DNA of 35,152 nucleotides from Syntrophorhabdus sp. (GCA_012719415.1 JAAYAK010000172.1:1-35152); one strand, 5' to 3'; counted from the first letter of the stretch, positions 7,337 to 25,901 are shown. Notes: generated from the sequence alone by a model not told the origin. A program made the numbers and translations.

Positions 7337-8614
7337 ATGGGTAAAGTCGAAGTCTTCGAGAACAAACGCCCCGTACTTGGGATCAACAGCCTTGGAAGGA
7401 TCGGAAAGCTGACGCTCTGGCATCACGTCGCTCGCAAGTACTTCCAGGAGATCGTCATCAACCTCGGTCGTGACGTGGGCAACGGCATCCCCGCCATCGC
7501 CCAGATCATCGAGAAGGATGCGACGTACGGAAGCATACATCGCTTTCTCTACGGCATTAAATCAAAGAGGATCATCGAGATAGTCGACGAGAAGAAGGGA
7601 AAGCTCCTTATCGACGGTATCCCTGTCACCATTTTGAGGGAAAACCGCAATCCCGCCGAGATCGGATGGCGCGACCACTCTGTCGACCTCGTCGTCGAGT
7701 GCACGGGCAAGTTCCAGGACCCCACCATAGCCGCTGACGACAAGGGCGGGTCCATACGGGGACACCTCGCAAGCGGGGCCAGGGCCGTCATCAACTCGTC
7801 GGCCTTCAAGATCAAGAACAAGGCCCTTTCGACTCCCGATGACTGCGTGACGCTCATCTACGGGATCAACCACACTGCTTTCGATTTCAAGAAACACAAG
7901 GTGCTCTCCGCGGCGTCCTGCACGACCACGGGCCTCGCGCACATGATAAAACCGCTCCTCAACACGGCAGCCACGAGCAAGATCCTCACCGCGTCCATGT
8001 CCACGGTGCACGCCGTAACGAATTCCCAGAGTATCCTCGACAAGACCCCGAAGGCCGGGGAAAAGGACATGAGGAAGAACCGCAGCACCCTGAACAACAT
8101 AATCCTCACCTCCACGAATGCCGCCGCGGCGCTCATTCAGGTCATACCGGAAGTGAAGGACATAGGGTTCATGGCCGATTCGATCCGGGTGCCGACGAAC
8201 ACGGAGTCCCTGATCGTTCTCAACTGCACCTTCCAGACGCGCGCGGGCGCCGACGGCAAGAAAGAGCCCGTGACCACCAAGCTGCTCAACGAGATCTACC
8301 AGAAGGCCGCGGACAACGACCCGGAACACCTCGTCATCTTCACCATGGAACAGAACGTCTCCACGGACCTCATCGGCACCGATGCCGCCATCGTCATCGA
8401 GGGCCAGTTCAATCACACAAGGACAGCCTTCATCGACGTAGACGTCGCCGGGATCCCCAACGTGCCGGAGGAGCTTCTCAAGGCAGCGCCCAAGGGCAAC
8501 ATTCGGGTCCCCGTGGTCCACGCGAAGATCTTCGGATGGTACGACAACGAATACGGCAGCTACACCAACAGAATGGGCGACCTCTCGGTATACGTGCACA
8601 AGAGCATGGCCTGA
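7337..8614 (+). CDS. gap: Glyceraldehyde-3-phosphate dehydrogenase, long divergent form
   Basis: The 425-residue product is about 90 residues longer than usual GAPDH (about 330-340) but keeps the catalytic set. Catalytic Cys195 is in SAASCTTTG and His225 in STVHAVT. ECTGKF, RVPT and a C-terminal WYDNEYG (usually WYDNEWG) are present. The nucleotide-binding start reads NSLGRIGKL rather than NGFGRIGRL. The usual SCTTNC reads SCTTTG, so the second cysteine is absent. The enzyme should oxidise glyceraldehyde 3-phosphate to 1,3-bisphosphoglycerate, or the reverse, in the cytoplasm. Cofactor preference cannot be told. AGGAGGT precedes the ATG, and a good promoter lies at 7160-7188. No other glycolytic gene is in the operon. 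The stop codon overlaps a 12-bp inverted repeat. Confidence 0.92.
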   Translation: MGKVEVFENKRPVLGINSLGRIGKLTLWHHVARKYFQEIVINLGRDVGNGIPAIAQIIEKDATYGSIHRFLYGIKSKRIIEIVDEKKGKLLIDGIPVTILRENRNPAEIGWRDHSVDLVVECTGKFQDPTIAADDKGGSIRGHLASGARAVINSSAFKIKNKALSTPDDCVTLIYGINHTAFDFKKHKVLSAASCTTTGLAHMIKPLLNTAATSKILTASMSTVHAVTNSQSILDKTPKAGEKDMRKNRSTLNNIILTSTNAAAALIQVIPEVKDIGFMADSIRVPTNTESLIVLNCTFQTRAGADGKKEPVTTKLLNEIYQKAADNDPEHLVIFTMEQNVSTDLIGTDAAIVIEGQFNHTRTAFIDVDVAGIPNVPEELLKAAPKGNIRVPVVHAKIFGWYDNEYGSYTNRMGDLSVYVHKSMA

Positions 8615-8754: not shown

Positions 8755-8775
8755 GGGCTTCGGCCCGGGTCACAG
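8746..8775 (-). terminator. 13-bp hairpin with TTCG loop overlapping the dikinase stop codon
   Basis: CTGTGACCCGGGC (8746-8758) pairs perfectly with 8763-8775 around the tetraloop TTCG (8759-8762); read on the minus strand the loop is CGAA. The dikinase stop codon (8770-8772) lies inside the stem, and the last 7-bp unit of element E forms part of the other side. No T-run follows at once, so it may act by stabilising the 3' end as well as by termination. Confidence 0.6.
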
Positions 8776-11700
8776 TGTTATCTTGTACGACTCTTCCTTT
8801 TCTATCTCGTGTTTGCCGAGGTAGACGGCGCCGGTCCATCCGTCTATGCTGATATAGTCCCCGCCCCTGATGGTGTTGCCGTCACAGGTGCTGTACGCCT
8901 CTGTCTCGTACACGTGAAGCTTCGAGAAACCCACGACACCAACCTTGTTGAGCTGGGGGATGGTGACGGCGGCGTGGGATGTGCCTCCTCCACGGGCCGT
9001 GAGGATGCCTTCCACCTTGAGGATGATCCCCACGTCATCGGGCACGGTGTCGGGCCTGATGAGGATGAGGGGCTCCTTTTCATTCTGGCGCCGGTAGCGT
9101 TCTATCTCTTCCTCGGAATAGACGACGCGGCCGGCGAGCGCCCCCCCGCTCACGCCGATCCCTATCCCGAGCTGAGACCTTTCGAGTTCCGGGCTGTCCC
9201 TAAATGAAACGACCTTGCCCGCCCCCCGCTGGACCATGTCCCGTGTCTGGAGGATGAAAAGACCCCTCGGACTTGCCGTCTCGAAGGTGAACTCGATCTC
9301 CTGGTGATTGAAGCGCTTCTCATAGACAAGGAATTCGGCGATGCGCACCAGTTCTCCGTATATCTCGGGAAAACGTTTCTCCAGGGATATCAGTGACTGT
9401 CTCTTCTCCGAGACCCTCTGTCTTTCCGATATGGGATAGGTCTCAACAAGGCCGGAAACGATATCATCGCCCTGGACGCCGAATATGAAATCACCGTAGA
9501 GCGCCACGTTCTGCGACGACCCCCGGGGGTCGCGGGTGAAGATGACGCCGGACCCGGAATTCTCGTTGAGGTTTCCGAAGACCATCGCCTGGACGATAAC
9601 GGCCGTGCCCCATTCGTCGGACACGTGCATCTGGTGACGGTAGATGCGTGCCTGCTGCGAGTACCAGGAGTCGAAGACGAGCATGATCGCCTCCTGGAGC
9701 TGCTTGTGAGGGTCGTTGCTGATAACGATGCCCCTGTCCTCCATCGCCTTCTTGTAGGAAAGGGCAAGTTGCCTCATCTGGTCGGGTCCGAACTGTATCT
9801 TCTTGGAAACACCGTACTTCAGCTTAAAGCTGTTCATGATCTCATCGAAGATGTTCCTCTCGAGACCCTGGAACATGCCCCATGTCTGAAGGAACCGCCG
9901 GTAGGAGTCCCAGGCCGCCCAGCGGTATTCCCTGAACCTGCTGAGGCCCTCGGCTATCGTCTCGTTGAGTCCCACATTGAGAAAAGAGTGCATCATGCCG
10001 GGCAACGAGATCGTGGCACCGCTGCGGACGGACAGAAGAAGCGGGTTGCGCGGATTGCCGAACTTCTTCCCCGTCACGCGTTCCAGCGACTGTATCTCGT
10101 TGTAGATGCGGGCGCTCAAGTCCTTGAAGATGTACTTGTACCCGATGACCGCCTCGTATCCCCGGAAGACCTCCGTCGTGATGATGAAACCGGGCGGCAC
10201 CGGAAAACCGAGGGACGCCATCTGCTTCAGGAAATACCCCTTGTTCCCGATGAGGACCTGGTTATCGATATCCTTCTTCTTCTCGTATATCGGAGAAATG
10301 GTCAGCTCCGGGATGTAGGCCATGACGAGGTTGAGGATCTGCTTGTTGTCCTTGAACTTCTCGAGTTCCTGACCGAGGGCCCTGGTGATGGAGTTTATGA
10401 AATTGTCGAAGACCTGAAGGCCGAAAGCCGAGGCAATGAAAGACCGGATGAAGTTCTCGGAGTCGCGGTAGATGACCTCCTGCCTCGATTGCCCCGTCCC
10501 ATCGCCATCCCCCTTCAGATCCATGATCTGGTCGATGATGACAGGCAGGTTCATCGCGTGGGCGTTGATGTAATAATCCCTGATGATATCCTGTATCTGT
10601 TTCGAGATGAACTGGAATATATCTATGTACTGATCTATGGAGAACTGCCGTATCTGGAGGGCGGCGGTGATGTATCTCATCTTGGACACGAGGCCCTCGG
10701 TCGCTATGCCGTCCACGTCCAGGGCCTTCACATAGAGCCAGAGATACTCATGGATCCTCATGAGGGTGCTCTTCGTTATGAACTTCAGATTGAGGGACTG
10801 AATGAGCTTGTCGAAGAGCATCGTCGCGAGGCTTTCAAGGCGAAAGGTGAGGCCCATGGCCTCGAACTTCTCTTCGCGGTATGTCCCGTACATGGACGGT
10901 ATGCCGGCGGCTATGTGCCTCTTGTGGTATATGTTCTCGAAATAATCCGTCTTCACGGGAGAAAGGACCTTTCCTTTCAGTCCCGCCAGCATGTCCAGAG
11001 TGATGTTGAGCGCCGCGTAGTGGTCCTTCCTCTTCAGCGCCCTTTTCAGCGAACGGATCCTGGGAATATCGACGATGCAGGATATCTCGAGGTCCCTCAG
11101 GAGGTCGATGTGCTGATGGTTGTATTTCTTGTATATGAGCTGATAGTACCGGAGCATGAGCCGCGCCCTTTCACGCTCCCTGTCGCTGATCCTGCGTATA
11201 CCCTTGACCTCCTTGAAGATCCTTGCCGCGTCCCATTCCAGGAAATTCCTCGGGTCTTCCTTGGCGCGGATGAGGAGGTTCTTGAAGGCGATATGAAGAT
11301 CGTCGAAAAACTCTCCTTCACTGTGGACCTGTTCGAAAACCTCCTCGGGAAGATGGGGCTTGATGTAAGACCTGTCTCCTGTGGCCCAGTACCGGAAGAT
11401 ATCCTCCGTGAAAGGGACGAGGAGGCTGTTGCTCTCCACGTGAGATTGCTTCCTCAGGAAAAATATGAGCTTGTCGTTGCGTGCCGACAACTCGTCGACA
11501 TTCGTCGACGTTTCCCTCAGCTCGCCTTCGGCGCCTATCTCCGTAAAAAAGATGGGAAAAAGCCTGAGAAGCTGTTTGACCAGGTTGTAGGAAGGGGTAA
11601 TGTCGGAGTTCAGGAACGCCGATATCTCCTTCTGGAAGAGGTCCGTGTCCTTGACGAAGACGCCCTGCAGTTTGAGATTGACGATGAGAGCGGAAAGAAG

Positions 11701-12981
11701 CCTCTTTGTCCACCGTGGCCTGAAACCGATTATCTTCAGCCAGGACCTGATATTCTCGATATGCGCCGGGTTGGCCTTGATCTGCCACTCCGACGTGGAA
11801 CCCGCGATGTCGGGGTACTGAAACCCGAACCCGATGAGTTCGTCGATGAAGGCATCCACGAGGGGATGGTTGTTCTGGTCGAAGACACCCCTGGCGAGGG
11901 TTGTGATGCAGTCGATTATCTTCGACTGGAACTGGCTGCGCCCGATGGTCCGTTTCATGGAGGAGAAAACCTTCTTCACGAACTCCTGAAGGTCCTGGTC
12001 CTGCGTCTGCTGAAAGACCTTTCCCAGGCATCGGTTGATCTCTATAAGGCCCGACGCGTGGATATCGATGAGGCCCGGCACGTTCAGGACGTGAAAGAGG
12101 AAGTCGAGTTTGACGAGAAAGCTTCTGCCGGTGAACACCCCCGACCGCTCCAGCTCATCGGCTACGAGAAGATACCCATTTACAATCTGGAAGTAATCGG
12201 GCATCTCGAGATAATCCCGAATGCCATCCGTTCCGGTGGCCACGGCGTCGTGGAGTCTGTCCACACGCTCGAGGAGCTCTTTCATGTGCCCGTGGCTCAA
12301 GGGAGAGACAAGCCTCCTGAACTCCATGGCCGCCGCTTCGTCTTCCCCATCGGACACGTACCACTCCGTCGGGTCAGGCTGCGTTGCCCAGAAGTCGTAG
12401 GTCTCCCGGAACATTATGTAGAGAAGATCCCTGAGGACAGGGAGTTCGACGGAGCACTCGTGCTCCCGCAGAAGCCCAAGCGTCGCCTTCAGATACGTCG
12501 ATGATTTCCTCAGGAACGGATGCCTCCCCTTGCGGGCAAATTCGAGGAGCGAGGAAAAAATAGAGGAGACAAGGCCGAGATTCCTTTCCAGTCTCCCGCC
12601 GCTCTTTCCGATGATCGTGTTGATGAACTCGAAGAGATACCTGACCGCGCTGTCCTGGACACGTTCGTCCCGGGCCAGGGAAATGGTATCCGTGTATATG
12701 TCGGAAAGAAGGGCAAGCGCCGCAAGACCATTGTCATGACGGTTGAAATCGTAGAAATCCCCGATGGAAAGACCCTTGAGCTGCGTCAGAACATACTCCC
12801 AGTTGACAAAGGGATGGTTCAGCTCGACAAGCAGATCTTCGAGACGCCTCAGGATACCGTAGTGCCCCTCCATGACCTCCATCAGGACCCGGTACTTCTC
12901 GGGTATCTCGACGGTCGCCCTCGTCCGCTCGAGATTGATCTCCAATGCCGTGGATTTAAATGTAGCGTCTGTGTTTTCCAT
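8770..12981 (-). CDS. Large PEP-synthase/PPDK-related dikinase without a PEP-binding barrel; substrate unknown
   Basis: The 1403-residue product has an unrecognised, mostly helical N-terminal region (about 1-890). It is followed by an ATP-grasp PPDK_N-type domain (about 905-1230) with GNKGYFLKQMASLGFPVPPG, LLSVRSGATISLPGMMHS and GVIFTRDP. A C-terminal swivelling domain carries the phosphohistidine motif GGGTSHAA with His1336. The protein ends soon after, so the TIM barrel that binds PEP or pyruvate in PpsA and PPDK is missing. The chemistry seen is ATP to phospho-His. The acceptor is unknown and may be held by the N-terminal region. Rifampicin phosphotransferase and glucan water dikinase use the same two domains with other acceptors. 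The ATG lacks a ribosome site; TTTAAT (12991-12996, complement) would give a near-leaderless transcript. Confidence 0.8.
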   Translation of the reverse strand: MENTDATFKSTALEINLERTRATVEIPEKYRVLMEVMEGHYGILRRLEDLLVELNHPFVNWEYVLTQLKGLSIGDFYDFNRHDNGLAALALLSDIYTDTISLARDERVQDSAVRYLFEFINTIIGKSGGRLERNLGLVSSIFSSLLEFARKGRHPFLRKSSTYLKATLGLLREHECSVELPVLRDLLYIMFRETYDFWATQPDPTEWYVSDGEDEAAAMEFRRLVSPLSHGHMKELLERVDRLHDAVATGTDGIRDYLEMPDYFQIVNGYLLVADELERSGVFTGRSFLVKLDFLFHVLNVPGLIDIHASGLIEINRCLGKVFQQTQDQDLQEFVKKVFSSMKRTIGRSQFQSKIIDCITTLARGVFDQNNHPLVDAFIDELIGFGFQYPDIAGSTSEWQIKANPAHIENIRSWLKIIGFRPRWTKRLLSALIVNLKLQGVFVKDTDLFQKEISAFLNSDITPSYNLVKQLLRLFPIFFTEIGAEGELRETSTNVDELSARNDKLIFFLRKQSHVESNSLLVPFTEDIFRYWATGDRSYIKPHLPEEVFEQVHSEGEFFDDLHIAFKNLLIRAKEDPRNFLEWDAARIFKEVKGIRRISDRERERARLMLRYYQLIYKKYNHQHIDLLRDLEISCIVDIPRIRSLKRALKRKDHYAALNITLDMLAGLKGKVLSPVKTDYFENIYHKRHIAAGIPSMYGTYREEKFEAMGLTFRLESLATMLFDKLIQSLNLKFITKSTLMRIHEYLWLYVKALDVDGIATEGLVSKMRYITAALQIRQFSIDQYIDIFQFISKQIQDIIRDYYINAHAMNLPVIIDQIMDLKGDGDGTGQSRQEVIYRDSENFIRSFIASAFGLQVFDNFINSITRALGQELEKFKDNKQILNLVMAYIPELTISPIYEKKKDIDNQVLIGNKGYFLKQMASLGFPVPPGFIITTEVFRGYEAVIGYKYIFKDLSARIYNEIQSLERVTGKKFGNPRNPLLLSVRSGATISLPGMMHSFLNVGLNETIAEGLSRFREYRWAAWDSYRRFLQTWGMFQGLERNIFDEIMNSFKLKYGVSKKIQFGPDQMRQLALSYKKAMEDRGIVISNDPHKQLQEAIMLVFDSWYSQQARIYRHQMHVSDEWGTAVIVQAMVFGNLNENSGSGVIFTRDPRGSSQNVALYGDFIFGVQGDDIVSGLVETYPISERQRVSEKRQSLISLEKRFPEIYGELVRIAEFLVYEKRFNHQEIEFTFETASPRGLFILQTRDMVQRGAGKVVSFRDSPELERSQLGIGIGVSGGALAGRVVYSEEEIERYRRQNEKEPLILIRPDTVPDDVGIILKVEGILTARGGGTSHAAVTIPQLNKVGVVGFSKLHVYETEAYSTCDGNTIRGGDYISIDGWTGAVYLGKHEIEKEESYKITL

Positions 12982-13027: not shown

Positions 13028-14167
13028 CTATCTCTTCCCCACCACCTCGATCACCGTCACTTCCGGTGGGGTGAGGAAGCGTATCGGGGGGCCCCATGTT
13101 CCGGTCCCCCTGCTGACATAGAGGAGGGAACCGTTCTTCAGCGGGTAGAGGCCGGCGACCATGGGGAAAGATATGCGCGTTATATACTTGAAGGGATAGA
13201 TCTGCCCGCCGTGGGTATGGCCGGAGAGCTGGATGTCGAAGAACCCCTGAGATGATCCTGCCACGACGGGACGGTGTTTCAAGAACACGGTGAAAAGGTG
13301 CCGCGGCAACCCCTCGAGCAGGGATCTCTCCCCGGGCGAGTGGCGGCCCGACGACCTGTGTGCGGCATCATCGTCGACACCTGCCACGTTCATGATCCCA
13401 TCGATGGTGATGCCTTCGTTGCGGAGCATCCTGAACCCGGCTTTCCTGGTGAAATCCTCCGAAACCCCGACACCCGCGTAGAACTCGTGGTTTCCCATGA
13501 TCGCGTATTTCCCGTACCGGGGCTTGATGTCCCTGAGCATGTCGGAAAGACCGTTGATATTGTTGATCTGTCCGTCCACGAGATCGCCCGTCGACACGAC
13601 CATGTCGGGACGGGCCTCCCTCACGGCCGCCACCGCTCTCTCCAGCATCCTTTCCCTGTTGACGAGCCCGAGATGGATATCCGAGACCTGGACTATCGTC
13701 ACCTTTTCGATCCCGGCAGGGAGCTTGGACGTCTCGACGCGCACCCTCTCCGTGCGGACCGAAGCGGCCTCATGGTATCCGTACACCACTGTGAAGACCG
13801 ATACGGCGACAGGAACAAGGAAAAGAACCAGGTTCGAGCGCACCGTTGCCGGCAGCCCGACCTTGAAGAGCGACGCCGCGATGATAACACACAGTCTGCC
13901 GATATCGATGGCAAGGGATGCGATAAAGAAGATAAAGACCGCGCTCATCCAGATGTAACCGGCATAGGCGAACATTCGCGCGATGGATTCCTGCCCGCCC
14001 TGTTCGAGGGCACGGACAAAAAGGGGCATGAAGACACAGAAGAGGAGTATGAAACCGATGACGCAGCCCGTAAGCGGCCGGAACCGAAAGGCATACCATG
14101 CCTTTATGAAAACATACGCGTGAAGCGCCGTGTAGAGCGTGAAAAAGGTGATAAAGAAAAGACTCAT
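13028..14167 (-). CDS. Membrane-anchored metallophosphoesterase (YkuE/YaeI-like)
   Basis: The 379-residue product starts with four hydrophobic segments (about 3-27, 35-55, 68-95 and 111-130). A calcineurin-like phosphoesterase domain follows. Its metal-binding blocks are visible in order: VSDIHLG, TGDLVDG, MGNHEFY, LKHRPV and SGHTHGGQ. The domain probably faces the periplasm or the membrane surface. Relatives cleave phosphate esters, some of them of lipid intermediates, but the substrate here is not known. AAGGA lies six bases before the ATG. The dikinase gene follows after 46 bp, and the end of the efflux operon lies 93 bp upstream, so it may be partly co-transcribed with either. Confidence 0.85.
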   Translation of the reverse strand: MSLFFITFFTLYTALHAYVFIKAWYAFRFRPLTGCVIGFILLFCVFMPLFVRALEQGGQESIARMFAYAGYIWMSAVFIFFIASLAIDIGRLCVIIAASLFKVGLPATVRSNLVLFLVPVAVSVFTVVYGYHEAASVRTERVRVETSKLPAGIEKVTIVQVSDIHLGLVNRERMLERAVAAVREARPDMVVSTGDLVDGQINNINGLSDMLRDIKPRYGKYAIMGNHEFYAGVGVSEDFTRKAGFRMLRNEGITIDGIMNVAGVDDDAAHRSSGRHSPGERSLLEGLPRHLFTVFLKHRPVVAGSSQGFFDIQLSGHTHGGQIYPFKYITRISFPMVAGLYPLKNGSLLYVSRGTGTWGPPIRFLTPPEVTVIEVVGKR

Positions 14168-14552: not shown

Positions 14553-17500
14553 CTATCCGTCCTTCCGGGGAAAATATCTTTCTTTCATCTCGTCGAAAAG
14601 ATCATACGCCACGGGAATAACAACGAGCGTCAGGATCAGCGACGTGACAAGACCTCCAATGGTGGCAAGGGCCATGGGGGAGCGGGTTTCGGCACCCTCG
14701 CCGATCCCGATGGCGATGGGCAGCATGCCCATGATCATGGCGAAGGTGGTCATGAGAATGGGACGGAGCCTGACGGGGCCGGCTTCGAGGAGAGCGTCCC
14801 TCCGCGCGGCCCCGCGCTCCCTGAGTATATTCGTGTAGTCCACGAGGAGGATGGCGTTCTTCTTCACGAGGCCCATGAGAAGGATGAGCCCGATGATGCT
14901 GAAGATGTTGAGCGTCTTTCCCGTGACAAAAAGGGCGCCGAAAGCCCCTATAAGGGAGAACGGCATGGACAGAAGCACCGTGAAGGGATGTATGAAGCTT
15001 TCGAATTGCGCGGCGAGGACCATGTATGCCATGATCACGCCCAGGATGGCGGCGAACAGGAGATATCCGAAAGACTCCTTCATGGTGTCGGCCTGCCCCT
15101 TGTAGCTGCCTGAATACCCGGCCGTAAGCACCTTTGAGGATATGTCGTCAAGCTCCGACTTCGCCTGTCCCAGGGGTTTTTTCTCGAGGTTCGCGAAAAG
15201 GGTCACCGCCCGCTGTCGGTCGACGCGGTTTATGACGCTCGGACCGCCGCCTTCCTTGAGGCTCACGATGTTGGAAAGCATGACCAGTTTACCCTCTTTC
15301 GACCTGATGTAGATCTCGCCGATGTCCTCAGGATCGGTCCTGTTCTCAGGATTGAGCCTCACCCGAACATCATAGCGCCTTCCCCTCGCCTCGTCCTTGA
15401 ACTTCGTTATCTCCACCTCACCGCTGAGGAGAAAGTTGGCCGTCTCGGCCACCGTCGCCACGTCGACGCCAAGGTCGGCAGCCTTGTCACGATCGATGAA
15501 GACGCGGACCTCCGGCTTGCCCTTCTCAAGTGATGTGTCGAGGTCGACTATCCCCGGCAACCTGCCGAAGCGGTCGCGGATATCCCTCGTGTACGCCTCC
15601 AGTTTGTCCAGTTCCAGGCCGCGGATGCTGTACATGATGGCCACCTGTCTCTGTCCGCCTCCTATCATGGATATGTTCTCCACGGAAGCCTTCAGTCCCG
15701 GTATCTTCCTCAAGGCCCTGCGCATCTCGGCCTTGATCTCTTCCTGGGTCCTCCGGCGCTCCGATTTCGGAACGAGATTAACGGACAGGTTCGCCTTGTT
15801 CGTTTCCTTCGTACGTCCCCCACCCTGCGTATACAGAACGCTCCGGACCTCCGGGAACCTCTTCACGATCTCCTCGGCCTTGCGGTTCATGTGGTCCACC
15901 TCATCGACGGAATAATCGATGGGGGTCTGGAGCCGGATGACGAAGCGGCTCTGGTCTTCCGACGGAGTGAACTCCTTTCCGATGAAGAACATGAGACAAA
16001 GACCCAGAACGAATGTGCCCCCGGCGAAGACAAGCACCTTCGTCCGGTGGTAAAGGGCCCACGTGAGTACCCCGCGGTACCTTCCTTCGAGCCTCTCGTA
16101 GCTCCCTTCGAGGAGCGCCGAGAACCGTTGCAGTCTCTCGGATACGCGGCAGCGCTCCCCGATCCTTCGGACACATGCCGGCATTCTGACAGACTTTCCG
16201 GTACTGCTCCTGCCCTTCAGGTAGAGGGACGCCAGCATGGGCGTCAACGTGAACGAAACAAACCAGGAGACCATCACGGCAAAGACCACCGTCATACCGA
16301 ACTGGAAGAAGAAGCGCCCGATGATGCCCTTCATGAATGCCACGGGGATGAAGATGACGATGATGGCAAGCGTCGTTGCCGAAACAGCAAGGCCGATCTC
16401 GGAGGTGGCAAAGAAGGCGGCTTCCCTGGGTGTCATCCCCTCCTCGATATGGCGCTGGATATTCTCTATGACGATGATGGCGTCATCTATCAGAATACCA
16501 ATGGAAAGCGACAGGGCCAGCATGGACATGTTGTTGAAGGTGAAGCCGAAGGCGTTCATGATCGCGAAGGTCGAAACGACAGACGCCGGGATGGCCAGCG
16601 CGCTTATGATCGTCGTCCTGAAGTTCCTCAGGAAAAGAAGGACGGCCAGAATGGCGAAGAACCCGCCGTACACGAGGTGATGCTGGACCTCGTTTATGGA
16701 CCTTTTTATGAAGTTCGACTGGTCGAAGGCAATACCCAGGTTCATGCCGTTGGGCAGGAGCCGCGATACCTCTTCGAGTTCTTTCTTTATCCTCTCTATG
16801 ACCTCGACGGTGTTCGTTCCCGACTGTTTCTGGATACCGACCGCGACACTGGGAGCTCCATTATACCGGGAAATGGTCCGCTTCTCTTCCATGCCGTCCT
16901 CGGCGCGGCCGATGTCCCTCAGGCGCACGGGCGTTCCCTTGTAATACCCCAGTACCATCTCGTTGAACTGCTGGATCGTCGGGAACTCGCCCTTGACCTT
17001 GATGGTGTACTCTTTCGTCGCGCTCTCTATCCTTCCTCCCGGCAGCTCGACGTTCTCCCTCTGGAGGCATTTCATGACGTCATGGGCCGTCACGCCATAT
17101 GCCCTCAACCTGTCGTTGTCGAGCCATATGCGGGCCTGGCGGAGCCTCAGTCCATACAGTCGGATCGCACCGACCCCGTTTATCCGCTGGAGCTGTTCCT
17201 TGAGGACCTCATCGGCGTAGGTGGAAAGATCACGGATCGATCTCTGCCCGTGCAGGGCAAGCCACATGACGGGTGTCGCGTCGGGATCGACCTTCTCCAC
17301 GATGGGCTCGTCGATGTCACTCGGCAGCTTGGACCGTATCACGGATATCTTTTCCCTGACATCCTGCACGGCCAGGTCGATGTCTTTTTCGAGCACGAAC
17401 TCAACGGTGATGTTCGATGCCCCTTCCGTGCTCGATGAGGTGATCGTCTTGATGCCGCTGATGGTGTTGACGGACTCCTCGATCTTGTCCGTAACGTCGA

Positions 17501-17681
17501 TGTCCATGATCTCGGGGCTCGCCCCCTTGAGCTCCGTCCTGATGTTGACCATGGGCAGATCGACCTTGGGGAAAAGATCGACACCGATGCTCGGATAGCT
17601 GACAATGCCGAGAACAACGAGGGCCATGACGAGCATGGTGGCAAATACGGGTCTCTTGATTGATGTATCGGAAAGCCACAT
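14553..17681 (-). CDS. RND-family multidrug efflux pump (AcrB/MexB type)
   Basis: The 1042-residue inner-membrane protein has the full RND layout: two repeats of a large periplasmic loop and six membrane spans. The start SDTSIKRPVF is the classical RND amino end. The proton-relay acids are in SIGILIDDAIIVIEN, and the partner lysine is in LVKKNAILLVDYTN. The pump drives substrates through the TolC-like channel using the proton gradient; the substrate range cannot be predicted. It forms one operon with the adaptor (44-bp gap), the TolC-like gene, the tetR gene and the PII-like gene. No strong ribosome site precedes the ATG, but the amino end fits the family. Confidence 0.95.
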   Translation of the reverse strand: MWLSDTSIKRPVFATMLVMALVVLGIVSYPSIGVDLFPKVDLPMVNIRTELKGASPEIMDIDVTDKIEESVNTISGIKTITSSSTEGASNITVEFVLEKDIDLAVQDVREKISVIRSKLPSDIDEPIVEKVDPDATPVMWLALHGQRSIRDLSTYADEVLKEQLQRINGVGAIRLYGLRLRQARIWLDNDRLRAYGVTAHDVMKCLQRENVELPGGRIESATKEYTIKVKGEFPTIQQFNEMVLGYYKGTPVRLRDIGRAEDGMEEKRTISRYNGAPSVAVGIQKQSGTNTVEVIERIKKELEEVSRLLPNGMNLGIAFDQSNFIKRSINEVQHHLVYGGFFAILAVLLFLRNFRTTIISALAIPASVVSTFAIMNAFGFTFNNMSMLALSLSIGILIDDAIIVIENIQRHIEEGMTPREAAFFATSEIGLAVSATTLAIIVIFIPVAFMKGIIGRFFFQFGMTVVFAVMVSWFVSFTLTPMLASLYLKGRSSTGKSVRMPACVRRIGERCRVSERLQRFSALLEGSYERLEGRYRGVLTWALYHRTKVLVFAGGTFVLGLCLMFFIGKEFTPSEDQSRFVIRLQTPIDYSVDEVDHMNRKAEEIVKRFPEVRSVLYTQGGGRTKETNKANLSVNLVPKSERRRTQEEIKAEMRRALRKIPGLKASVENISMIGGGQRQVAIMYSIRGLELDKLEAYTRDIRDRFGRLPGIVDLDTSLEKGKPEVRVFIDRDKAADLGVDVATVAETANFLLSGEVEITKFKDEARGRRYDVRVRLNPENRTDPEDIGEIYIRSKEGKLVMLSNIVSLKEGGGPSVINRVDRQRAVTLFANLEKKPLGQAKSELDDISSKVLTAGYSGSYKGQADTMKESFGYLLFAAILGVIMAYMVLAAQFESFIHPFTVLLSMPFSLIGAFGALFVTGKTLNIFSIIGLILLMGLVKKNAILLVDYTNILRERGAARRDALLEAGPVRLRPILMTTFAMIMGMLPIAIGIGEGAETRSPMALATIGGLVTSLILTLVVIPVAYDLFDEMKERYFPRKDG

Positions 17682-17725: not shown

Positions 17726-18859
17726 TCATCTCTTTCCCTCTTTGTCTTCCATTCCCTCTTTGCCCTTCTCCCGCTCCGGGGACTTCTCGACGGAGACCTT
17801 AGCCCCTTCCGAAAGGTTCTGCTGTCCCGCGACGACGACCATCTCACCCGCCTTCAACCCCGAGGAGATCTCCATGAATTCGCCATATTTGTTGCCCAGC
17901 TTCACGGCGCGCTCCCTGGCGGTGGTGCCCTCAATAACATAGAGGCGCACCCTGTCGCCCTCGTACAGGAGAGAGGTAACGGGAACGAGGACCGTATCCT
18001 GCTCATCGCCTGTATACAGGCGGACCTTCGCGAAAAGGCCGGGTTTGAGCTCATCCTGTCCGTTCGGGATAAGGGCTTCCACCGTAAGGCTCCGCGTCTT
18101 CTCCTCGAGGCTCGGGAAGACTATGGACACCTTCCCGACAAACTCACGCCCGGGAAAGGCATCGACCCTGACGTGTACCTCCTGGCCGACCTTCATCCTG
18201 CCGATATCGCGTTCGGGAACAGAAAATCGAAGCTTCAGGGGGGCCGGTTGGATCAATACGAGCATCGGGGTCCCGTTCTTCACGAAATCCCCCACGGACA
18301 CCTTCTTCTCCTTGACCCGGCATGCCGTCGGTGCGTGGAGCCTCGTTTTGGCCAGCTTCTGATTGGCTATGACGAGGGCGGCCCTGGCGCGATCGACCTC
18401 GGACTCGGCAAGGGTCAACCGCGTGAACACATCATCGTATTGTTGTCTCGTCACGAGCTGTTCCTTGTAGAGGGCATCCTTCCTCGAGAACTCCATCTTC
18501 GTGTTCGCCAGCGACGCCTCTGTCTGCTTGAGGGCCGCCTTTGCCCGTATCACTTCGTGCGCGTACTCCGTATCGTCCAGCGTCGCGAGGAGCATTCCCT
18601 TCGTGACGACGGTGCCCTCGTCCACCTTCACGGTCCGGACTATTCCGTCTATTTCGGCGCCCATGACTATCTCTTCATTGGGGTTCAGGGTCCCCGTGGA
18701 CTCTATGTAGGGGCGCACCTTACGGTTTTCCGCGGCCTGCACGATGACGTTCACGGCCTTGTCCCCGGCACTCTTTTTTCCGCAACCCGCCGACGGCAGG
18801 ATAATGCCTGACAGGGCAAGGAGCGTGAGGCCCGCTATTCCGATGGTCCTTCTTTTCAT
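17726..18859 (-). CDS. RND efflux periplasmic adaptor (HlyD/AcrA family) lipoprotein
   Basis: The 377-residue product has a signal peptide with a lipobox (PSAGC, lipidated Cys26), so it is probably anchored to the inner membrane facing the periplasm. Next come a beta-barrel/lipoyl region beginning at RKVRPYIESTGTLNPNEE, an alpha-helical hairpin (about 100-170) and a second lipoyl half (LHAPTACRVKEKKVSVGD). A beta-barrel and membrane-proximal domain complete the fold, ending in a charged tail. It bridges the RND pump and the TolC-like channel. The ATG overlaps the TolC-gene stop by 4 bp (ATGA), which shows tight coupling. Confidence 0.93.
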   Translation of the reverse strand: MKRRTIGIAGLTLLALSGIILPSAGCGKKSAGDKAVNVIVQAAENRKVRPYIESTGTLNPNEEIVMGAEIDGIVRTVKVDEGTVVTKGMLLATLDDTEYAHEVIRAKAALKQTEASLANTKMEFSRKDALYKEQLVTRQQYDDVFTRLTLAESEVDRARAALVIANQKLAKTRLHAPTACRVKEKKVSVGDFVKNGTPMLVLIQPAPLKLRFSVPERDIGRMKVGQEVHVRVDAFPGREFVGKVSIVFPSLEEKTRSLTVEALIPNGQDELKPGLFAKVRLYTGDEQDTVLVPVTSLLYEGDRVRLYVIEGTTARERAVKLGNKYGEFMEISSGLKAGEMVVVAGQQNLSEGAKVSVEKSPEREKGKEGMEDKEGKR

Positions 18860-20247
18860 TTCACCATGTTCTCCTTCACGACCCCGGCGGGGGCACCAAT
18901 GGTCCCCTTGTTCACCGACGCGAGCAGTGTCCCCGTGGAGCGTCTCAGACGGACAACAGCCTGCTGGTACTGGTACAGGGCATCGATAAGCTGACGCTCG
19001 GCCGTCACGAGGAGCGTGTTGGCGTCCATAACATCCACACTCTGCGCGAGACCGAACTCGAACTGCTTTGAAACGGCCTTGTAGTTATCGTCGGCAAACA
19101 CCCATTGGTCCTCGAGGGACCGCAGGATACCCTTCTGGGTGATAAAATCAAGGTAAGAGCTCTCAACCTCGACAGTGACGCTCTTTTTCAGGTCATCGTA
19201 CGCATAGTCCGTTTGTCTCTTCCTCGATTCCGCCTCCCTCACCTCGGCGGCCCTTAAGCCCCCCTCAAAAAAGGGAAACACCAACCTGACGCCGCCATAG
19301 AGATTGTCCCTGATGAGACCGCTTGTCTCGGGGGTCTCCTTCTTCTGCGCGAAAACCCCCTCAACGGCAAGGGTCGGCCAGTAAGAGCCCCGGGCGATGG
19401 CGACCTGGGAGGAAGCGATATCCTTCTGGATCCCCGACGACTTCAACTCCGCCCTCTCCACGGAAGCGATCTGTCTCAGGCACCCAAGCTCGAGCCCCGG
19501 GCAATTCCCGATGACAGGGTCGGCGTTGCCCTCACTTATGTCCTTGAGACCTGCGGCGCCTCCCTTATGTGTATCGACGATATCGAACTCGTCCTCGAGG
19601 CCGACGATCCTCTTCAGGACGGCCTTTGTGAACCTGAGGAGATTCTCCGCCTTGACGAGATCGGAACGCGCCCCCGACAGCTCCGCCTCAGCCCTCAGGA
19701 CGGCCGTCTTCGTGACCTCGCCTATCCTGAGCCTGATCGATGCCGCATCCCTGTGTTTCGTCAGGCGCTCCACGTTCTGCTTCTGTATCTCCACGAGGCG
19801 CGACGCCTTGAGGACGTCGTAATAGGCGTTCGTCACCGAAAGGATGTACTGTTCCTTCACCGCGAAGAGGTCATGGTCCGTCTTCTTTATGTTGTCCCTC
19901 GCCGCCCTGTAGGCTGTGATCTCCCTGCCCGACATGGACACGGAATGGTCGAGGCGCAGACTCCACGCGGAGGACTCATCAGGCTGGGTCAGGCTCCCTG
20001 TGTCGGAGACCTTCCGGTCCTTGTACCCCGTGTAATTGCCCAGACCGGATATCGTCGGCAGCAGGGCGGACATGGCCTTGTCCTTCCCTGTCCTGGCTAT
20101 GGCGAGGTCCTCTTCGGATATCTTCACCCTCTCGGAACGCTGGAGGGCTATGGAGTAAAGATCGTCCAGGGTGTACGACCCGCAGTGTCCCATGGCTGCG
20201 AGCCACAGGAACGTGAAGGTCATGAATATCGGGACAGGTAATCTCAC
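18856..20247 (-). CDS. TolC-family outer-membrane efflux protein
   Basis: The 463-residue product has a signal peptide (hydrophobic to about residue 20), then two repeats of long helices typical of the TolC/OprM trimer (YTLDDLYSIALQRSERVKI near the start; DYAYDDLKKSVTVEVESSYL in the second half). It forms the outer-membrane channel and periplasmic tunnel of the efflux pump. Its start overlaps the tetR stop by 4 bp and its stop overlaps the adaptor start by 4 bp. Length is normal. TolC genes placed first after the regulator are common in this kind of operon. Confidence 0.93.
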   Translation of the reverse strand: MRLPVPIFMTFTFLWLAAMGHCGSYTLDDLYSIALQRSERVKISEEDLAIARTGKDKAMSALLPTISGLGNYTGYKDRKVSDTGSLTQPDESSAWSLRLDHSVSMSGREITAYRAARDNIKKTDHDLFAVKEQYILSVTNAYYDVLKASRLVEIQKQNVERLTKHRDAASIRLRIGEVTKTAVLRAEAELSGARSDLVKAENLLRFTKAVLKRIVGLEDEFDIVDTHKGGAAGLKDISEGNADPVIGNCPGLELGCLRQIASVERAELKSSGIQKDIASSQVAIARGSYWPTLAVEGVFAQKKETPETSGLIRDNLYGGVRLVFPFFEGGLRAAEVREAESRKRQTDYAYDDLKKSVTVEVESSYLDFITQKGILRSLEDQWVFADDNYKAVSKQFEFGLAQSVDVMDANTLLVTAERQLIDALYQYQQAVVRLRRSTGTLLASVNKGTIGAPAGVVKENMVK

Positions 20248-24686: not shown

Positions 24687-25901
24687 TCAATACTTTCCAT
24701 GATACTCCTTCAGACGCTTCGCGAAGTCCCGGCCGAATTCGTAGCATCTGTTCATGTCCTCTTCTGACGGTTTGTACAACACCTGGAGACCGGGCTCCAC
24801 CGTTTCGAGGCCCATCTGCTGAAACCTGGCATAGGCCTCCTTGACCGCACCACCTCCCCATCCGTAGCTGCCAAACCCACCGACGATCCTGTCTTTCGGC
24901 CTCAAGCCCGCAAGGTGATACAGGAACTCCGCAACGGACGGGAACATGACGTTGTTGATGGTCGGGGTACCGATGAGGCAACCCCGCGCCTTCCAGAACT
25001 CCTTTATCGCCTCGCTCATGGGTGTCGACCTCAGTTTGATCACCTTGCACGGCACCCCTTCGTCCTTGATGCCGTTCATGATGGGATCGCTCATGAGCTC
25101 CGTCGAATGCCACATTGTGTCGTAAATGATGACGGCTGACAGATCCGCCTTGCCTTTCGCCAGGTCGAGGTACCGCTGTATGATGTAACCCGGGTCCTTT
25201 CTCCATATGACACCATGATCGGGAGCTATCATATCGATCTCCAGCCCGAGCTTCACGATCTCCTGGATCTTCGCCTCGATGAGCTTCCCGAAGGGCATGA
25301 GGATGTTGGCGTAATAGTCCACGATGGCGTCGTCGAGCTCGAACTGGGAGTGGCATGAAAAGAACTCATCGTCGAACCTGGCCGCCGAGGCCATGTGCTG
25401 ACCGAAGGCATCCTGCGATATGAGGAGCTTCGCCTCGGGTATGTAGGTCACCATGGAATCCGGCCAGTGAAGCATGGGCGTTTCCAGGAACGTCAGGGTG
25501 TACTTCCCCGTCTTCAGCGTATCGCCGCTCTTGACTATCCTGAACTTCCACCGTGATGTGTCGAAGTGGCGGTCAAGACCCTTTTTTCCCCTCTCCGTGA
25601 TGAAGATGGTCGCGTCGGGTGTATACTCCATGATCGCCGCGATGCTGCTCGCGTGGTCCGGTTCGATGTGGTTTATCACGATGTTCCTGATCTTGTAAGG
25701 ATCGACGACGCGCCTTATGTTCTCCACTGCCGTCGTGTCGAAGTCATGTTTGACGGTGTCGAGAAGGGTCACCTCATCATCCATGATAAGGTAGTTATTG
25801 TACGTGGTGCCATTCTTCGTAACGTAACCGTGAAAATCCCGGACGGCCCAGTCGATCACCCCAACCCAGTAGATACCCGGTTTGATCTCTATCGGTTTCA
25901 T
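24687..25901 (-). CDS. Flavodiiron protein (rubredoxin:oxygen / nitric oxide oxidoreductase, FprA type)
   Basis: The 404-residue product has a metallo-beta-lactamase-like di-iron domain (about 1-250) with ligands HIEPDH (78-83), then a flavodoxin domain (about 255-400) with IIYDTMWHSTE, GTPTINN and GSYGWGGGAV. Family members reduce O2 to water or NO to N2O with electrons from rubredoxin or a similar carrier. AAGGAGG precedes the ATG. It is the first gene of the operon, with rubrerythrin 39 bp downstream; the rubredoxin-like domain of rubrerythrin or another carrier may donate electrons. O2 or NO preference cannot be read from sequence. Confidence 0.95.
   Translation of the reverse strand: MKPIEIKPGIYWVGVIDWAVRDFHGYVTKNGTTYNNYLIMDDEVTLLDTVKHDFDTTAVENIRRVVDPYKIRNIVINHIEPDHASSIAAIMEYTPDATIFITERGKKGLDRHFDTSRWKFRIVKSGDTLKTGKYTLTFLETPMLHWPDSMVTYIPEAKLLISQDAFGQHMASAARFDDEFFSCHSQFELDDAIVDYYANILMPFGKLIEAKIQEIVKLGLEIDMIAPDHGVIWRKDPGYIIQRYLDLAKGKADLSAVIIYDTMWHSTELMSDPIMNGIKDEGVPCKVIKLRSTPMSEAIKEFWKARGCLIGTPTINNVMFPSVAEFLYHLAGLRPKDRIVGGFGSYGWGGGAVKEAYARFQQMGLETVEPGLQVLYKPSEEDMNRCYEFGRDFAKRLKEYHGKY

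Follow-up and report, generated by a model that had tools for sequence, protein, structure and literature searches.

We describe a 1403-residue protein encoded on the minus strand of a 35,152-nt stretch of Syntrophorhabdus sp. DNA (GCA_012719415.1 JAAYAK010000172.1:1-35152, here called the window). Its ATP-grasp and phosphohistidine part is, by sequence, a phosphohistidine-swivel dikinase of an already known kind, related to pyruvate, phosphate dikinase (PPDK), joined to a conserved N-terminal region without a recognised fold. Wherever this dikinase occurs in a sample of 247 genomes of the window's phylum, so does a divergent glyceraldehyde-3-phosphate dehydrogenase (GAPDH), which we call GapX. 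The pairing suggests that the central step of glycolysis or sugar synthesis has a second, unrecognised route, and we tentatively favour a pyrophosphate (PPi)-forming “phosphoglycerate dikinase” that would work with GapX. The relevant features of the window are:

8770-12981, minus strand: dikinase-like protein, 1403 aa; open reading frame (ORF) with ATG start, N-terminal all-alpha region, ATP-grasp and phosphohistidine domain, no barrel
11845-12981, minus strand: residues 1-379, N-terminal part resembling an alpha-solenoid, with weak conservation (mean column identity ~0.33-0.53)
10267-11844, minus strand: residues 380-905, conserved core without a recognised fold, ~50 columns invariant; candidate site for an acceptor or partner
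9217-10266, minus strand: residues 906-1255, PPDK-type ATP-grasp domain; K914, R986, E1230, Q1245 and R1247 conserved
8803-9168, minus strand: residues 1272-1393, phosphohistidine swivel domain; H1336 codon at 8974-8976
7337-8614, plus strand: GapX, divergent GAPDH, 425 aa; convergent with the dikinase gene, 156-bp gap

A dikinase without a pyruvate barrel

Pfam recognises two stretches of the protein, PPDK_N (954-1255) and PEP-utilizers (1303-1384), and no others. In a phmmer search of PDB sequences, residues 908-1393 match positions 15-515 of PPDKs with known structures (E 2.6e-77). The chain stops just past the His domain and thus lacks the pyruvate barrel. Across 36 representatives aligned with the PPDK of the same genome, K914, R986, E1230, Q1245, R1247 and H1336 do not vary, and H1336 aligns to the PPDK catalytic His; we take all six to have their established PPDK roles. 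These results bear out an earlier sequence-only reading, which had described a 1403-residue dikinase-like ORF with a PPDK-type ATP-grasp, a phosphohistidine at His1336 followed by the end of the protein, and no phosphoenolpyruvate (PEP) barrel.

Of the NCBIfam models compared here, PPDK (TIGR01828) scores highest at 380 bits, which does not reach its curated cut-off of 843. PEP synthase models give 61-72 bits, and membership fails for TIGR01418 (60.8 bits vs a cut-off of 739.75) as the barrel is also missing. Membership likewise fails for rifampicin phosphotransferase (NF041857, 32 bits vs 999), and the ATP-grasp and His domains are adjacent, with nothing inserted at the position of the rifampicin-binding domain. 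The sequence-only reading had also drawn a comparison with glucan water dikinase, in which the His domain precedes a C-terminal ATP domain. That comparison does not hold, since the domain order here is the opposite and the sequence is much nearer to PPDK by score.

A scan of genome contigs found relatives in 79 loci, with 33-95% identity and ~1360-1430 aa where full-length. Their hosts are Syntrophorhabdus, Syntrophus/Smithella, Geobacter-like bacteria, Clostridia, Bacteroidales, Cloacimonadota, Kapabacteria and Gemmatimonadetes metagenome-assembled genomes. Full-length orthologues across so many loci mean that the architecture did not arise by chance. True PPDK is often present in the same genomes; the window's own genome holds a separate full-length copy on contig C301 (G000:C301). 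In a tree of the shared region, a 100/100 branch splits 17 PPDKs from the dikinase family, and the PEP synthase outgroup was too long-branched to place the root.

The window's genome also encodes a stand-alone PPDK_N-type protein (G000:C137:55751-56698, L080; open frame ~393 aa). It may be one subunit of a dikinase made of two parts, such as phenylphosphate synthase, in which an ATP-grasp and a His swivel domain serve a non-pyruvate acceptor site. Syntrophorhabdus is a phenol degrader.

The N-terminal region

The sequence-only reading had placed about 890 N-terminal residues outside any known domain. No Pfam family matches the region, as it had said, but the extent is better given as about 1-905. 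Pfam searches with 51 aligned family members gave only scattered weak matches there, and an N-terminal profile found nothing better than E 0.005 among PDB sequences. AlphaFold2 with the family alignment gave an all-alpha model (pLDDT, the predicted local distance difference test, 86.8; pTM, the predicted TM-score, 0.80), which is not a PEP/pyruvate-binding barrel. Residues 1-380 resemble generic HEAT-type solenoids, and a structural search with the 1-905 model returned only generic alpha-solenoids (Foldseek TM ≤0.21; VIA Z ≤10.3).

Residues 380-905 form a more conserved core. Modelled alone, it reached pLDDT 89.3 and pTM 0.87, with no Foldseek match in the PDB at E 0.001 (best 0.21) and VIA Z ≤10.1 over ~110 residues. 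About 50 of its columns are invariant, many of them charged (K/R/H/D/E). An invariant K-R-H loop (~688-693) lies between two strands and is the least confident part of the model, as might be expected of a mobile active-site loop. The invariant, often charged columns are best read as a new acceptor site in residues 380-905, in line with the earlier suggestion that the N-terminal region may bind a new acceptor.

We searched for the core with a profile in a phylum sample of 247 genomes (completeness at least 90%), of which 75 matched. The match lay inside one open frame of at least 1140 aa, usually ~1370-1590, in 74 of these; the frame is interrupted in the last (G133), and no stand-alone copy of the core was seen among the 75.

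GapX, a probable obligate partner

Clustering of neighbouring genes identified GapX as the one gene common to dikinase loci across phyla, making it the informative neighbour; the sequence-only reading did not report it and instead raised a glucan link through glycogen phosphorylase. That link is not supported, as the glycogen phosphorylase cluster (cluster 39) is beside the dikinase in only four loci (the window, L005, L008 and L023). GapX lies immediately 3′ of the dikinase gene in most loci, whichever way either gene is oriented. The two are convergent in most Syntrophorhabdus/Syntrophus/Smithella-type loci, and GapX is co-directional and downstream in Bacteroidales, Clostridia, Geobacter-like and Cloacimonadota loci and in several others of the window's phylum. 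With tblastn, we recovered six more loci that the ORF caller had missed.

GapX (~417-425 aa across the family) is above gathering for Pfam Gp_dh_N and Gp_dh_C. It scores 274 bits against type I GAPDH (TIGR01534), below the curated cut-off of 367, and has several conserved insertions relative to canonical GAPDH. It keeps the SCTT motif with the catalytic Cys, the (V/I)H catalytic His, the R(V/I)P phosphate-site Arg and WYDNE. At the NAD ribose site, 72 of 73 GapX sequences have NxGR where canonical enzymes have ND; because an Asp is lost and an Arg gained, GapX is predicted to use NADP. Canonical GAPDH is usually found in the same genomes, as is phosphoglycerate kinase (PGK), but GapX is the only GAPDH in G072, G133 and G262 (each estimated to be 100% complete), so it probably handles glyceraldehyde-3-phosphate (GAP).

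In the phylum sample, the core and GapX occupy the same 75 genomes, spanning 53 genera (Fisher p 2.5e-65, a value that overstates independence because the genomes are related). The two genes are unlinked or on different contigs in 17 of the 75, so their co-occurrence is more than mere linkage. Among 99 relatives, 43 have the dikinase, 44 have GapX and 42 have both; the three mismatches are in genomes that are 74-86% complete. GapX was also found in 20 of 21 genomes reached through the loci, most of which belong to other phyla. Pairwise distances for the dikinase correlate with those for GapX at 0.95, and the two proteins divide into the same three groups, one of which brings together the members from Clostridia, Geobacter-like bacteria, Bacteroidales and Cloacimonadota. 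The pattern is consistent with the two genes having been inherited, and perhaps transferred, together. One locus (L148) has a single gap-dikinase-gapX-pgk-tpi run, L114 and L116 have similar runs, and GapX can adjoin pgk/tpi when unlinked from the dikinase (L153). Such mutual dependence points to one reaction sequence.

The open-licence papers that we searched contained nothing on the pair. The N-terminal domain, the dikinase family and its obligate GAPDH partner are not described in the literature searchable in that way.

Two further observations concern individual genomes. G160 has two GapX copies of equal score (C1:505479-506699 and 1778728-1779948), one adjoining the dikinase and the other elsewhere. 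A 1820-aa open frame in G287 hinted at a dikinase-GapX fusion, which was ruled out: the dikinase stops at a TGA and GapX starts 12 nt later.

A possible phosphoglycerate dikinase

In the mechanism we tentatively favour, a PPDK-derived dikinase would have lost its C-terminal pyruvate barrel and gained a second station in the all-alpha N-terminal domain. At the ATP-grasp site, ATP with phosphate (Pi), as in PPDK, would phosphorylate H1336; the His domain would then swivel and deliver the phosphoryl group to the N-terminal core. We infer the use of Pi and PPi from kinship with PPDK, and the acceptor and the direction are likewise proposals. The likeliest acceptor would be a metabolite of the GAPDH node, giving 3-phosphoglycerate (3PG) + ATP + Pi <-> 1,3-bisphosphoglycerate (1,3-BPG) + AMP + PPi. 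GapX, as obligate partner, would interconvert 1,3-BPG and GAP with NADP(H). Cells would thereby have a further, PPi-linked path in addition to PGK and canonical GAPDH, reversible in principle and most useful for gluconeogenesis in energy-limited anaerobes. Using textbook energies, converting 3PG to 1,3-BPG costs ~+3.8 kJ/mol via the dikinase and ~+18.9 kJ/mol via PGK, i.e., the dikinase route is ~15 kJ/mol easier in the gluconeogenic direction. Syntrophus aciditrophicus has high PPi and an AMP/ATP ratio of 5.9, and makes ATP from AMP + PPi (PMC4992975), so a PPi/AMP economy exists there; its relatives carry the dikinase/GapX pair.

Some observations weigh against this mechanism. Nearly every near-complete holder examined also encodes PGK, which leaves no need for the dikinase as its substitute, and replacement of PGK by the dikinase is ruled out. 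The high PPi and AMP/ATP of S. aciditrophicus (PMC4992975) would push a PPi-forming reaction backwards. In G133, the dikinase gene is split into two frames (L149 2933-7100) while GapX is intact and is the only GAPDH of the genome; either a sequencing error or recent decay would fit the data.

It is possible, though doubtful, that the pair represents a new central-carbon activity, i.e., a PPi-linked phosphoglycerate dikinase with a new-fold acceptor domain and a dedicated NADP-type GAPDH, which together would give anaerobic bacteria a widespread second route between GAP and 3PG. If so, it would be a new way over the most uphill gluconeogenic step, 3PG to GAP, and would extend phosphohistidine dikinases to carboxylate acceptors. 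The pair occurs in about 30% of the sampled phylum genomes and in several other phyla. Automatic annotation may label the dikinase PPDK or PEP synthase and GapX an ordinary GAPDH, in which case the ATP/PPi costs of gluconeogenesis could be wrongly assigned in models of anaerobes.

Alternative explanations

Mechanistically, the strongest competing reading is a VadK-like regulator. VadK (Rv1127c) of Mycobacterium tuberculosis is a PPDK derivative without the barrel; it was recently shown to phosphorylate itself on His, to interact with enzymes of the methylcitrate cycle and to adjust the flux through them (PMC13400623). By analogy, H1336 would autophosphorylate and the alpha-solenoid would dock onto GapX or another enzyme of the node to control it, with or without phosphotransfer to protein and with no small-molecule acceptor. 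The model of residues 1-380 does resemble a protein-binding alpha-solenoid, and the conserved insertions of GapX could form a docking surface. However, the ~50 invariant, often K/R/H/D/E columns of the core and its invariant low-confidence loop resemble an active site more than a surface for docking, and VadK itself has no domain like 380-905, so we consider a purely regulatory role unlikely. Somewhat less improbable is a dikinase that serves another small acceptor (e.g., glycerate, a triose, pyruvate at a new site or a GapX cofactor), with only an indirect link to GAPDH. Acceptors in this superfamily are diverse, including rifampicin and, through HpeHI, hydroxyphenylethanones (PMC12167813), and holder genomes usually have PGK and often true PPDK as well. 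The GAP/1,3-BPG/3PG node is nevertheless favoured by the strict one-to-one pattern shared with GapX and by the gap-pgk-tpi operons in which the pair lies.

Strong kinship with PPDK also raises the idea of an ordinary PEP-forming PPDK or PEP synthase whose N-terminal part replaces the barrel, or of a degraded PPDK paralogue. We regard both as very improbable: the barrel is missing and the N-terminal models contain no alpha/beta fold, the genome already has the full-length PPDK on C301, the 100/100 branch sets the family apart from the 17 PPDKs, and active-site residues are intact across phyla, contrary to decay.

Other neighbouring genes

Apart from GapX, the conserved neighbours of dikinase loci are only lineage-specific ones. 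Upstream of the dikinase gene in the window is an RND efflux permease (14553-17681, minus strand), with a metallophosphoesterase (13028-14167) between them. These two genes and the ORFs 17726-18859 and 18856-20247 form a block that is kept only among close relatives, which argues against a functional tie to the dikinase. A flavodiiron-like protein with ODP-type beta-lactamase and flavodoxin parts is encoded at 24687-25901 (minus strand), and its gene cluster (cluster 21) is found two genes downstream of the dikinase in the Bacteroidales loci L063, L066, L072, L073 and L079, perhaps reflecting only a shared anaerobic lifestyle. In some members of the phylum, small GNAT acetyltransferase genes adjoin the dikinase or GapX (L150 11110-12922; L153 8101-8535), in L150 beside genes for RapZ and a ribosome hibernation factor, and a regulatory link is possible.

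Comparison with known systems

Like PPDK (TIGR01828), the dikinase has an ATP-grasp domain followed by a phosphohistidine swivel domain with conserved catalytic residues. Unlike PPDK, it has no C-terminal PEP/pyruvate barrel, has ~905 extra N-terminal residues without a recognised fold and forms a separate clan in the tree. With VadK it shares a PPDK-derived ATP-grasp and His domain without the barrel, and an apparent tie to a partner metabolic enzyme, here through gene co-occurrence. VadK, however, has only 17 residues ahead of its ATP domain where the dikinase has 905, its partners are methylcitrate cycle enzymes, and it comes from a different phylum.

GapX resembles type I GAPDH, including the gluconeogenic NADP-dependent GapB, in its SCTT, catalytic His, R(V/I)P and WYDNE motifs, and differs in its length and insertions, NxGR in place of ND and a score under the GAPDH-I cut-off. 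The dikinase may act on the same acyl phosphate as PGK, but we found no sequence relation between them; PGK uses ATP/ADP directly without a phosphohistidine, and both coexist in genomes. Rifampicin phosphotransferase (PMC4844700) and HpeHI (PMC12167813) also combine an ATP-grasp with a His swivel domain, and theirs serve a non-pyruvate acceptor site. The dikinase differs from that group in having no recognisable rifampicin-type acceptor domain (32 bits against the RPH model), and its own candidate acceptor site is the N-terminal core.

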